34,955 nt of DNA. It comes from Prevotellaceae bacterium (GTDB lineage Bacteria > Bacteroidota > Bacteroidia > Bacteroidales > UBA932). Positions 7,395 through 19,357 of this stretch are shown piece by piece; the stretch's first letter is position 1, and every line of letters begins with the position of its first letter. A program made the translations under genes and the position numbers. Under the pieces are notes generated by a model. That model ran no database searches and had not been told where the DNA came from. It saw nothing but the letters and a program-made list of their open reading frames with translations. The DNA is taken from the NCBI GenBank assembly GCA_031266935.1, contig JAISAC010000083.1:1-34955 (forward strand), written 5' to 3'.

Positions 7395-7769
7395 TTAGAA
7401 TTTTAGTCCACCCTCACGAGCGGCCTCGGCTACACATTTTACTCTCCCGTGGTACAAGAAACCGTTGCGGTCAAATACGACCTCCTTAATGCCTTTCTCA
7501 AGCGAGCGCTCGGCGGCAATTTTGCCTATTACCTTAGCAGCCTCCTGCTTGGTTTTTCCTTTTACCTGCTCAACCACCGATTTCTCAATGGAGCTTGCTG
7601 CCAGCAGGGTTGCTCCCTGGCCGTTGCAAGCCGTATCGTCGATGAGCTGAACGTAGATTTGGTCGTTGCTGCGGTACACCGACAGGCGCGGACGACTGGC
7701 CGTACCGTGAACAACCTTACGAATACGGTATTTGATACGCTGCCTTCTTTCTGTTTTTGATAGTGCCAT
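7395..7769 (-). CDS. rplR: 50S ribosomal protein L18
   Basis: L18 carries 5S rRNA into the central protuberance together with L5. The basic N-terminus [35 protein letters not shown] and the C-terminal [25 protein letters not shown] match the family. The length, 124 residues, is only slightly above the usual 115-120. It lies between rplF (18-nt gap) and rpsE. Confidence 0.98.
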
Positions 7770-7787
7770 TTTTTTATTCCCTCCTGC

Positions 7788-8348
7788 TTATTTAGACGCC
7801 GCCGATTTACCGGCCTTACGGCGAATTACTTCGCCTACAAACTTAATACCTTTACCCTTATACGGCTCGGGCTTGCGCAGCGAGCGTATTTTTGCGGCAA
7901 CATGACCCACCAGCTGCTTATCAATGGATTTCAGCGTAAGGCGAGGGCTTTCGCCTTTCTTTACAGGTATGGCTTCGGCTTTGATTTCCTTGGGCAGCAT
8001 CAGGTGAATTTCGTGCGAAAAGCCAAGGCTGAACTCTACTACCTGCCCTTTCACCTCAACCTTGTAGCCTACGCCCACCAGCTCCTGCTCAATGGTATAG
8101 CCCGCAGATACGCCTACCACCATGTTGTTGATGAGCGCCCGGTACAAGCCGTGCATTGAGCGGTGGCGCGGCTGGTCGGTGGGGCGCGTTACTTTTACTT
8201 GACCATCCTCTACGGCTACGGAGATATCCTTATCTACCGCCTGCTTCAGCTCGCCAAGAGGTCCTTTAACCACAACCACATTACCCGCGTCAACCGTTAC
8301 GGTAACGCCTTGTGGCAGGTTTACAGGCAATTTTCCTATTCGTGACAT
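7788..8348 (-). CDS. rplF: 50S ribosomal protein L6
   Basis: L6 lies near the GTPase-associated region of the large subunit and has two repeated alpha/beta domains. MSRIGKLPVNLPQGVTV, the VKGPLGEL motif and the C-terminal signature PEPYKGKGIKFVGEVIRRK are diagnostic. The length, 186 residues, is normal. It starts 29 nt after the rpsH stop. Confidence 0.98.
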   Translation of the reverse strand: MSRIGKLPVNLPQGVTVTVDAGNVVVVKGPLGELKQAVDKDISVAVEDGQVKVTRPTDQPRHRSMHGLYRALINNMVVGVSAGYTIEQELVGVGYKVEVKGQVVEFSLGFSHEIHLMLPKEIKAEAIPVKKGESPRLTLKSIDKQLVGHVAAKIRSLRKPEPYKGKGIKFVGEVIRRKAGKSAASK

Positions 8349-8377
8349 TTAATCTTACTGTTAATTTACAAATTAGC

Positions 8378-8773
8378 TTAATATATATAGCAAAGAACTT
8401 CGCCGCCAACATTTTGCAGGCGCGCCTCCTTATCGGTCATCAAGCCTTTGGAGGTAGAGAGGATGGCGATACCCAGGCCGTTCAGCACGGCAGGCATGGT
8501 ACGTACGCCGGCGTAGCGGCGCAACCCCGACGTGCTGATGCGCTTCAGCCCTTTGATGGCAGAGCGCTTGCTCTCGGGGTGGTACTTGAGCGCAATCTTA
8601 ATGCTGCCCACAGCGCCTTCTTCTATAAACTTGTAACTCAAAATGTAGCCCTTTTCATGAAGAATACGGGTTATCTCCTTTTTGATGTTGGAAGCGGGTA
8701 TTTCCACTACCTTGTGCCCCGCCTTGATGGCGTTGCGGATTCTTGTTAAAAAATCTGCTATTGGATCAGTCAT
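8378..8773 (-). CDS. rpsH: 30S ribosomal protein S8
   Basis: S8 binds the central domain of 16S rRNA. The start [20 protein letters not shown], the [13 protein letters not shown] block and the end [22 protein letters not shown] are typical. The length, 131 residues, is normal. Its usual upstream neighbour is rpsN, but here a foreign 183-codon gene lies between them, 60 nt upstream of rpsH. Confidence 0.98.
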
Positions 8774-8833
8774 TTTTGTTGGTTTTTAGTTTCAGCGCTC
8801 ATTGCGCCCGATATCCAAATTAACTATTGTTGA

Positions 8834-9385
8834 TTATTCGCTATATTTATACTTTACAACTCCCTGTACTAAATCTAACCGATGATTTTTGGAGGAAACG
8901 CGCTCATTCCCATCGCTATCGTAATAAAATGTTTCCAAATCATTTTCATCTTTCGGGTTGCGCCCTCTGCAAACCCTTATCTTATAGCCTTTATACCGCT
9001 CGTCATTCAATAAAATCAGCAAGACGTCATTCGGCTTAATTTGATCTTTTCCAAACGAGGCGTCAAATTTTTTGGCGTAAACAATATCTCCGCTGCTAAT
9101 GCCTTTTTTCTTCATCGAAACGCCGTCAGCCCGCGCCAGAATATAGTCCGAAGAATTGTATTTTTTTCCTTTAACAACGAACTTTTTCCCCGAAAAAAGT
9201 ATTTTATCTACAGGAGCAGGGTTACCCTCCTGTTCGCTTTCATATACTATATGCCCTGTTTCAACTTTCGGCAGCAAGCTACTTTTCCTTTGCTTTACCA
9301 TCGCACTGCTTACAATAATGTAAACGACTAATGTTACAAATATTATACCAAAAATTGTGCTTATAATGATTTCCATTGAGTCCAT
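8834..9385 (-). CDS. Membrane-anchored S24/LexA-like domain protein inserted in the spc operon
   Basis: This protein of unknown function has 183 residues. Residues 5-29 form one hydrophobic transmembrane segment, followed by a basic stop (KQRK). The C-terminal half resembles the LexA/S24 peptidase fold. ADGVSMKKKGISSGDIV (86-102) matches the family's G-x-SM...I..GD motif, with Ser90 at the nucleophile position, and the chain ends in the family-like QGVVKYKY. The catalytic lysine is uncertain: the aligned position appears to be Cys139, with Lys135 nearby, so activity may be lost. Met4 (9376) is an alternative start. The gene lies between rpsN and rpsH with no visible promoter and is visibly A/T-richer than its neighbours, which suggests later insertion. 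Confidence 0.75.
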   Translation of the reverse strand: MDSMEIIISTIFGIIFVTLVVYIIVSSAMVKQRKSSLLPKVETGHIVYESEQEGNPAPVDKILFSGKKFVVKGKKYNSSDYILARADGVSMKKKGISSGDIVYAKKFDASFGKDQIKPNDVLLILLNDERYKGYKIRVCRGRNPKDENDLETFYYDSDGNERVSSKNHRLDLVQGVVKYKYSE

Positions 9386-9517: not shown

Positions 9518-9787
9518 TTACCAGCTCGCCTTTTTCACGCCGGGTATCAAACCCTGGCTGGCCATTTCTCTAAAAGTGATACGGCTAATTCCAAACTGGC
9601 GAATGTACCCTTTAGGGCGTCCCGTAAGCGAACAGCGATTATGCAGGCGCACCGGACTTGAGTTCTTGGGCAGCTTTGCCAGCGCCACGTAATCTCCGGC
9701 TTCCTTGAGCGCCTTGCGCTTCTCGGCATACTTTGCCACCAACTTGGCGCGCTTTACTTCGCGCGCTTTCATGCATTCTTTTGCCAT
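9518..9787 (-). CDS. rpsN: 30S ribosomal protein S14, zinc-free form
   Basis: S14 sits in the 30S head. The sequence ends with [20 protein letters not shown] and the terminal KKASW. The length of 89 residues and the lack of CxxC pairs mark the long C-minus form, as opposed to the roughly 61-residue zinc form. It lies after rplE (20-nt gap), but the expected neighbour rpsH is displaced by an inserted gene and a 132-nt spacer. Confidence 0.98.
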
Positions 9788-9807
9788 CGTTCTACCTCTA
9801 CTGTTTT

Positions 9808-10410
9808 TTACTGTTTTTTTGCATTTTTAAAAGGAAGTCCAAAATGGCGAAGCAAAGCGTACGCTTCTTCGTCCCTTTCGGTAGTGGTAACAAAGGTCAT
9901 TTCTAAGCCCATGATTTTTGTTACCTTTTCAATATCTATCTCCGGAAAAACAATTTGCTCCTTAACGCCTAAGTTGTAGTTGCCGCGGCCATCCAGCTTA
10001 TCGCTGATGCCGCTGAAATCGCGAGTACGAGGAAGCGAAATACAAATCAGCCTTTCCAAAAATTCGTACATTTTGTTGCCGCGCAGGGTTACTTTTACGC
10101 CTATCGGCATACCCTTACGCAGCTTGAAGTTGGATATATCCTTCGTGGCGCGGGTAATCAGCGCCTTTTGGCCGGTGATGGCAGAGAGCTCGCTCTGGGC
10201 AACCTCTATCAACTTTTTATCAGCTGTTGCCACGCCAACGCCCTGGTTAACGACAATCTTCTCAAGCTTTGGCGCCTGCATGACGTTTTTATATCCAAAT
10301 TCCTTTACAAGGGCGGGTACAATTTCTTCCCTGTACTTTTTTTTGAGCAAAGGAATATATCCCTTTGCGTCCACATATACTTGTACCTGTGGTTGTTGTT
10401 TTTTTGCCAT
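9808..10410 (-). CDS. rplE: 50S ribosomal protein L5
   Basis: L5 binds 5S rRNA in the central protuberance and contacts P-site t[16 protein letters not shown], the [21 protein letters not shown] region and [23 protein letters not shown] are diagnostic and cover the full family. It has 200 residues, including an N-terminal extension of about 15 Gln/Lys-rich residues. Its start codon overlaps the rplX stop by one base (TAATG), which indicates translational coupling. Confidence 0.98.
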
Positions 10411-13612: not shown

Positions 13613-14191
13613 CTAAAACCTGCGCTGAACGACTATCTGAAACGTTGCCAGCATTGTTGCAACCGTTCCTTTTGAAAAAATATCTTCATGTTCCTTTGTC
13701 GTAAAATATACCGGACCGCGAAACCTCATGGCAAAATTCCAATTGGGCAGCCTTTCTTCGTGAAAATAAAGTTCCACCAACATGTTGCAACCAAAAGGGG
13801 CTACATAAGCCAACTTGTCTGCCCATCGCTTTTGCCGGACAGAGGGGCTATAGTAATCCTGGGCAAACAAGCCCAGCCTCACGTTTATCATTACATCAGA
13901 ACTATCCTGCCTCTCTTTTATTTTAAAGAACTTTGATATTTGATTCATGTTTAGTATTCTGTACATACCGCCCATCGAAGCATACATACCATTAAAACCT
14001 GCAAGCCATCCCGCGTCGGCAGTAGCCGTCCAGCGATTGTGCCGGAGCGTGTACGACGGACCTATGACATTGCTTACCGCCAGCCCAACATAATGCTCTG
14101 TCTGAGCCTGCAAAGATGTAGCACTACTACATAACAAAAATACCTGCAGAGTAGTAATCAGGAACACTTTCTTTGCCTTCAGCCTTACCAT
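13613..14191 (-). CDS. Secreted beta-barrel-like protein, paralog 1, inserted between rpsS and rplV
   Basis: The function is unrecognised. The 192-residue product has a basic N-terminus, a hydrophobic stretch and a signal-peptidase-I-type end (SLQA then QTEHY). The mature part shows alternating aromatic/hydrophobic strands and ends in Phe (VVQRRF), which suggests a small outer-membrane beta-barrel (inference). QTEHYVGLAVSNVIGPSYTL and HNRW...GWLAG match two other genes here (18249-18758 and 18770-19357), so it is a divergent member of a local family. It lies in the normally invariant rpsS-rplV junction, with 60 nt and 80 nt spacers and no visible promoter. Base use is A/T-richer than in the ribosomal genes. 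Confidence 0.8.
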   Translation of the reverse strand: MVRLKAKKVFLITTLQVFLLCSSATSLQAQTEHYVGLAVSNVIGPSYTLRHNRWTATADAGWLAGFNGMYASMGGMYRILNMNQISKFFKIKERQDSSDVMINVRLGLFAQDYYSPSVRQKRWADKLAYVAPFGCNMLVELYFHEERLPNWNFAMRFRGPVYFTTKEHEDIFSKGTVATMLATFQIVVQRRF

Positions 14192-18248: not shown

Positions 18249-18758
18249 CTATAACTTATACTGCAACGAAAGCTGAAACACATATAAGCACTCCTCCCAG
18301 AAACTTCTCTTCCCGCCAAATTCATTTTCAGTAAGAATAAGAGGCATCCCTACGTGCATCCCATAACTCCATTTTTCAGCAAAATTAAAGAGCAATTTGG
18401 TCATAATTTGCACTCCAAAAGGAGTATCGTAATTCATTCTCTTTGCGAACCGCTCCTGCGTTGAGCCGGAAGCGGCGGTATATCCCTGTCCGAATAAGCC
18501 CATCCCCGCGTCCACCATCATCATTCCACTCTCATGGTACAGCAACCTGTACTGTCCGGTTACGGAAAGGTGCCCACCACTAACTCCTGTCAACCATCCA
18601 CCGGTAGCGGTTACATTCCAGCGGTTGTGCTGCAACGTGTAAATTGGACCTACTACTTTTCCACCAATCATCCCCAAATGATGCTCTGTTTGGGCGGTAG
18701 CAGCCTTACACGCAAACAACAACAGCAATATTCCCCATTTGTTGTAGCAGCTATTCAT
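18249..18758 (-). CDS. Secreted beta-barrel-like protein, paralog 2
   Basis: The function is unrecognised. The 169-residue protein has a signal peptide (hydrophobic ILLLLFACKA, cleavage before QTEHH). The mature N-terminal block QTEHHLGMIGGKVVGPIYTL, continuing LQHNRWNVT, is almost identical to the next gene (18770-19357), while the rest diverges. The C-terminal half has alternating strands such as WSYGMHVGMPL and FQLSLQYKL, as in small outer-membrane barrels (inference). It lies 9 nt before pyrE and 11 nt after its neighbour, so it is translated from the same transcript as fusA and pyrE. Confidence 0.8.
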   Translation of the reverse strand: MNSCYNKWGILLLLFACKAATAQTEHHLGMIGGKVVGPIYTLQHNRWNVTATGGWLTGVSGGHLSVTGQYRLLYHESGMMMVDAGMGLFGQGYTAASGSTQERFAKRMNYDTPFGVQIMTKLLFNFAEKWSYGMHVGMPLILTENEFGGKRSFWEECLYVFQLSLQYKL

Positions 18759-18769
18759 CTAAATCCTTA

Positions 18770-19357
18770 TCAATTTTTCTTGCCCGTGCTCTCCAACCTA
18801 TACTGCAACGATATTTGATAGAGATATAACAAACCTTTCCATAAAGCGACACCAGAGTTATTATCACTATAGCCAATACTTTCTTCTGTCGGGTTCGTCA
18901 GCAAGGGTATGCCAATGTGCATACCATAACTCCAATTAGGCGAAACATTAAAGTAAATTTTACCAATAAACTGTACTCCAAAGGGGGTTGTGTAATCTAA
19001 CTCTCTAGCCAACTTCTTTTGCTGTAAGGTTGGGGCAACATACCCCAGCCCAAATATCCCCAACCCCAAATCTACCCTTATTCCGCGTCCATAAAGCAAC
19101 TTTACGCCTGCATATTCAAAATTTTCCAACAAACTAAAGACCCTGTACCCGCCTGTTAGTGAAGCATACCCGCCTTTAAATCCTGTCAACCACCCACCGG
19201 TAGTGGTTACGTTCCAGCGGTTATGCTGCAACGTATAAATTGGGCCTACTACTTTTCCGCCAATCATTCCTAAATGATGCTCTGTTTGGGCTGTAGCGGC
19301 TTTACCTGAAAACAAAATCAGTAAAGCTGCTAAAGAACTTGTTCGACAAAAACTCAT
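18770..19357 (-). CDS. Secreted beta-barrel-like protein, paralog 3
   Basis: The function is unrecognised. The 195-residue product has a signal peptide (SSLAALLILFSGKAATA, then QTEHH). Its first roughly 35 mature residues differ at very few positions from paralog 2, and the DNA there is also nearly the same, so this is a recent duplication or gene conversion. The middle is longer than in paralog 2 (VKLLYGRGIRVDLGLGIFGLGY). NWSYGMHIGIPL and YQISLQYRL are shared with it. It ends in a short basic tail (STGKKN). It is the first gene after fusA, with a 99-nt spacer in which I see no convincing promoter. Confidence 0.8.
   Translation of the reverse strand: MSFCRTSSLAALLILFSGKAATAQTEHHLGMIGGKVVGPIYTLQHNRWNVTTTGGWLTGFKGGYASLTGGYRVFSLLENFEYAGVKLLYGRGIRVDLGLGIFGLGYVAPTLQQKKLARELDYTTPFGVQFIGKIYFNVSPNWSYGMHIGIPLLTNPTEESIGYSDNNSGVALWKGLLYLYQISLQYRLESTGKKN

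Follow-up and report, generated by a model that had tools for sequence, protein, structure and literature searches.

What is a gene for a small membrane protein doing between rpsN and rpsH, inside the spc operon? In the window (the whole 34,955-nucleotide stretch of Prevotellaceae DNA analysed here), the plus-strand reading of positions 8834-9385 was interrupted by stops, and the minus strand was open for 183 aa. The neighbouring genes rpsN (9518-9787) and rpsH (8378-8773) have the same orientation as this ORF, and secY belongs to the same gene string, ~2.8 kb downstream. Gene order and the minus-strand reading thus bear out the preliminary description, which had placed the ORF at exactly these boundaries within the spc operon and near the secY-containing segment. 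The differing base composition that it remarked on was found as well (GC of 38% for the ORF vs 45-54% for the spc neighbours in the window), and relatives reach 48%. The positions of the features discussed below are collected in Table 1.

Table 1. The 183-aa ORF and its features, in window coordinates
Feature	Position	Strand	Basis
Whole ORF, 183 aa, membrane-anchored protein with predicted S24/S26 fold	8834..9385	minus	kept at the same junction in 7 genomes
Predicted transmembrane helix, residues 6-24 (helix predicted 3-34)	9314..9370	minus	model, hydropathy, flank charges
Predicted S24/S26-fold (LexA C-terminal-like) domain, residues 38-183	8837..9274	minus	AlphaFold2, Foldseek, VIA-align, hhalign
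Thr43-Gly44, putative equivalent of the LexA Ala84-Gly85 scissile bond	9254..9259	minus	alignment, VIA-align, hhalign
Ser90-Met91, putative nucleophile position (LexA Ser119)	9113..9118	minus	alignment, hhalign
Lys135-x-Arg137, invariant in 23 members	8975..8983	minus	alignment, MAFFT, model strand 132-142
Cys139, unconserved	8969..8971	minus	genus alignment
His168, invariant in 23 members; Y-S-F-H-P motif in many relatives	8882..8884	minus	alignment

The ORF is a protein gene under selection. It is the sole copy in its source genome, a 2.85 Mb draft assembly that is 73% complete. The isolate codes in the genus, whose named relatives are MAGs, hint tentatively at an origin from termite guts. 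The rpsN-rpsH junction was assembled in eight genomes of the genus (three more had no assembled rpsH), and seven of the eight carried the ORF. The other six orthologues shared 63-86% identity with the window protein and always lay between rpsN and rpsH. In one genus member (1.5 Mb), the junction was free of the ORF and measured 163 bp. With the gene, the gap spanned 649-767 bp in the genus; in 22 genomes from 21 other genera of the family it spanned 28-282 bp, with no relative inside. The dN/dS of the ORF across the genus was 0.11-0.22. Together with the conserved position, these ratios indicate a selected gene that was present early in the genus and is missing from at least one member. A chance ORF is ruled out by the same dN/dS values, and an assembly chimera by the agreement of seven separate assemblies. 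The genus nearest by rpsH identity carried a different small ORF in its rpsN-rpsH gap (about 1219-1500 in its own locus), of ~64 aa and with two hydrophobic stretches, meaning that small membrane genes of other kinds are found in this gap as well.

The window protein on its own matched none of the Pfam families, including Peptidase_S24 (PF00717), and a PDB sequence search with this single sequence returned nothing useful. A profile built from the seven genus sequences led to distant members, and further searches extended the alignment to 23. Of these, 12 matched PF00717 (best E 1.1e-6), and hhalign of the family against LexA and Bacteroidales HTH-S24 repressors gave 96-98% probability; the relationship to S24 that had been suspected from the motif is therefore found at the level of the family and not in a Pfam match of the window protein itself. 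The AlphaFold2 model computed from the 23-row alignment (pLDDT 83, pTM 0.71) replaced an earlier one from seven close sequences, which had reached pLDDT 66 and given a meaningless Foldseek list. With the new model, the top 16 Foldseek rows against the PDB were all LexA or UmuD. VIA-align superposed residues 38-183 of the model on LexA 79-198 with Z 10.7 (rmsd 3.2 over 111 residues), followed by lambda CI (Z 9.5) and UmuD′ (Z 8.7); the signal peptidases SipA, SpsB and human SEC11C scored Z 8.1-9.1, below LexA. According to the model, the ORF product thus has the S24/S26 fold, of the LexA type, as the preliminary description had anticipated when it proposed structure prediction as a check. The family is a previously undescribed one from Bacteroidales and a variant of the known S24/LexA proteins. 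We found no paper on a membrane S24 protein inside ribosomal operons. No protein of the source genome (73% complete) matched Pfam S24, be it LexA, UmuD or similar, and 12 of 14 control genomes had such a match.

In place of the winged-helix DNA-binding domain of LexA, which is absent, the model has one N-terminal membrane helix. It corresponds to the only N-terminal hydrophobic segment, in agreement with the single-pass protein described previously. Hydropathy and flank charges placed positive charge on the C-terminal side of the helix in nearly all of 24 members, which suggests an N-out/C-in orientation and a cytoplasmic domain. This predicted orientation makes a role like that of signal peptidases less likely, as the catalytic domain of S26 enzymes lies outside the cytoplasm.

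LexA cleaves itself at the Ala84-Gly85 bond by Ser119/Lys156 chemistry (PMC10020695). The corresponding serine motif, reported earlier as G-V-SM...GD with Ser90, reads D-G-V-S90-M-K-K-K-G-I-S-S-G-D in the window protein, and Ser90 aligned with LexA Ser119. Position 90 was Ser in 19 and Cys in four of the 23 family sequences, an exchange characteristic of nucleophiles, which suggests retained chemistry. Gly44, Lys135, Arg137 and His168 were invariant in all 23. At the putative scissile position, Ala-Gly was present in 16/16 relatives outside the genus, and Thr-Gly in all seven genus members. VIA-align and hhalign agreed on an offset to LexA of 41 residues, which places Thr43-Gly44 on Ala84-Gly85; for VIA-align, which gives the first and last aligned residues only, this placement follows from the aligned range. 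We found no paper on a LexA A84T variant.

The position of the catalytic lysine is ambiguous. In hhalign, LexA Lys156 fell one residue off Lys135, and MAFFT (genafpair) put Arg137 in the Lys156 column, with Lys135 two residues before it. Judged from the sequences, either Lys135 or Arg137 would occupy the Lys156 position or its neighbourhood, and the alignments disagree on which. Being two residues apart in a predicted strand (132-142), the two side chains should share one face of it. The preliminary description had named Lys135 and Cys139 correctly as residues and had tentatively taken Cys139 as the lysine position, from which it argued for a possibly non-catalytic protein or an altered dyad. 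This assignment is ruled out: residue 139 varies within the genus (C/Y/C/L/C/C/F), and the argument built on it gives no support to the non-catalytic reading.

Relatives were few, all of them in Bacteroidales. Among 395 genomes sampled from across the phylum, one more weak match turned up, and the other matches were known members. Most members outside the genus were the second gene of a pair, the first gene of which codes for a 4TM protein of ~140-155 aa with scattered weak Pfam matches and no known family. A neighbourhood survey, already proposed in the preliminary description, recovered the same insertion in the seven genus genomes and relatives at four ribosomal-operon sites. That description had missed the 4TM partner, the several operon sites and the LexA-like Ala-Gly of the relatives. 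At rpsJ/rplC, pairs were present in four genomes of one genus (complete copies) and in one genome of another family, and one genome had three tandem pairs at this site. Two genomes carried pairs after rpsC, and four at rpsH/rplF (in one of them, the contig starts just before the pair). The rpsN/rpsH site held a pair in one genome, in addition to the partner-less gene of the window's genus, and in several genomes two of the sites were filled. The protein tree grouped the members from each of the four operon sites into one clade (support 96-100), which points to separate old insertions that were inherited thereafter.

The 4TM partner was not found in any of the 11 genomes of the window's genus that were searched, which are incomplete assemblies, and the rpsN-rpsH gaps of genomes without the gene contained no convincing remnants of the module. 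One genome combined a lone 4TM gene in the rpsN-rpsH gap (9768-10223 in its own locus) with a complete pair between rpsH and rplF; this lone gene is the mirror image of the lone S24 gene in the window. A few members occurred outside the four sites, namely upstream of recA, within a T6SS/RHS locus that also carries an Imm22 gene, near a cydA-like gene, and in a polysaccharide locus, where the member had no clear membrane helix. The T6SS/RHS member and its 4TM partner (7480-8514 in that locus) lay between the RHS/Imm22 genes and a VgrG-like gene, beside a membrane protein gene of the 8xMP family.

Few gene strings in bacteria are as conserved as the S10 and spc operons, and extra membrane genes at four points within them were unexpected. 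That the family lodged repeatedly in ribosomal operons is, to us, more surprising than the window gene itself. The four-site and sometimes tandem insertions suggest that selection favoured either co-expression with ribosomes or a location from which a gene is not easily lost. Given this location, the proteins are probably made in step with ribosomes.

Our best account, held tentatively, is that the ORF product is a membrane-tethered, LexA-type self-cleaving switch, or a derivative of one, co-expressed with ribosomes; the fold in this account is that of the model, and cleavage is proposed from the conserved residues. The flexible [Ala/Thr]-Gly segment behind the anchor would fold into the active site, where Ser/Cys90 would attack the bond just behind the membrane helix, with Lys135 acting as the base and Arg137 and His168 as further candidates for base and support. 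Cleavage could then free the domain from the membrane, by analogy with LexA, in which it frees the regulatory from the DNA-binding domain. In the paired relatives, the adjoining 4TM protein might be the sensor, or the effector or target under control. The family hints at a switch linked to stress or growth. We counted in favour of the tethered switch the LexA-type fold covering the cleavage loop, the Ala-Gly of the outside relatives, the Ser/Cys90 and Lys135/Arg137/His168 pattern, the predicted cytoplasmic domain (as in LexA, in contrast to signal peptidase I), the dN/dS values and the four one-clade sites. Counted against it were the ambiguous Lys156 column, Thr at P1 throughout the genus, the lack of a Pfam family for the window protein, and the absence of a DNA-binding domain and of a known link to RecA.

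Because the window's genus combines an absent partner with Thr at P1, cleavage may be reduced or lost there, and the window copy could be slow, conditional, or a derivative relying on the tethered fold. For the same two reasons, the main rival is a catalytically dead tethered S24 fold, a pseudo-protease serving as a membrane scaffold or sensor to which a peptide or partner binds, in line with the non-catalytic sensor of the preliminary description. The replacement of Ala in 7/7 genus members, the missing 4TM gene in the 11 genomes and the placement of Arg137 in the Lys156 column by one alignment are all compatible with such a protein. Nevertheless, Ser90, Lys135, Gly44 and His168 stay invariant within the genus, and position 90 exchanges Ser for Cys and for nothing else across the family, as expected of retained chemistry; we consider a dead enzyme somewhat unlikely.

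A less probable explanation is a defence or selfish two-gene module, consisting of a 4TM effector and a LexA-like trigger, that persists inside essential operons, with the window copy as a solo remnant or domesticated piece. It would account for the patchy distribution, the low GC, the tandem copies and the several operon sites, and the member in the T6SS/RHS polymorphic-toxin locus is a lead for a link to interbacterial conflict loci. However, PADLOC gave no match to a known defence system, searches of phages, plasmids and viral contigs found no relatives, each site was inherited as one clade, meaning that the module is not moving now, and the solo gene is under strong purifying selection. 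We regard a defence or selfish role as unlikely. A trans-acting, signal-peptidase-like membrane protease whose substrates would be the 4TM partner or membrane proteins emerging near SecY is very unlikely: the S26 enzymes also match the fold (Z 8.1-9.1), the single N-terminal anchor resembles that of signal peptidases and a 4TM gene adjoins most relatives, but the charge rule predicts a cytoplasmic domain, on the opposite side of the membrane from that of signal peptidases, LexA superposes on a larger part of the model and with a higher Z, and the 4TM alignment has, by eye, no conserved Ala-Gly or Ala-x-Ala.

Compared with known systems, the tethered switch that we favour is closest to the C-terminal domain of E. 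coli LexA (Peptidase S24, clan SF), with which it shares the predicted fold and the G-x-S-M motif; the putative scissile bond also lies at the corresponding place before the domain. It differs in the anchor, in Thr-Gly and in having no known regulon; moreover, the invariant Lys-x-Arg and His, with the lysine position ambiguous, are not the LexA pattern. UmuD/UmuD′ is likewise an S24 domain without HTH, and its self-cleavage site, like the putative one here, is near the N-terminus, whereas the ORF product is membrane-anchored, has no umuC neighbour and is encoded in a ribosomal operon. Signal peptidase I (S26; SpsB, SipA, SEC11) has the single N-terminal anchor in common with it and a comparable core fold in the model; the ORF product differs in its predicted cytoplasmic orientation and its LexA-like cleavage loop, and the structural match is lower than with LexA. 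In the CI-RexA-RexB cluster of phage lambda, an S24 autoprotease gene lies beside the gene of a small 4TM protein. The S24 and 4TM pairs of the relatives resemble this cluster in layout; they lack both the HTH and RexA.

A broader proposal, which we put forward as doubtful, is that ribosomal operons of some Bacteroidales repeatedly took in an undescribed module of a 4TM protein and a tethered, self-cleaving protease of LexA-like type, its active site rearranged to Ser/Cys-Lys-Arg-His, that the module ties growth to the state of the membrane or to stress through domain release, and that the window represents a partner-less branch. If true, a LexA-type autoprotease would act at the membrane instead of on DNA, and a familiar switch would be wired in a new way. 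With its exchange of Ser for Cys and its ambiguous lysine, the family is also a test case for change in the S24/S26 active site.

Two other features were observed near the ribosomal genes. Upstream of rpsH (window 8774-8822, minus strand), GGATATCGG was invariant in 25 aligned rpsH leaders from many genera of the family and from the window's genus, a set from which a few motif-less leaders were left out. Right after it, 24 of the 25 had a stem of at least 4 bp with compensatory changes (GCGC/GCGC, GCATC/GATGT, GCACC/GGTGT); stems of at least 5 bp occurred in 14 leaders, compared to 1.1 in shuffles. The element had no match in Rfam and is perhaps an r-protein leader. Furthermore, three related-looking, probably secreted proteins with a TEHxxG...GPxYTLxHNRW pattern are encoded among the ribosomal genes (13613-14191, 18249-18758 and 18770-19357), one of them between rplV and rpsS.
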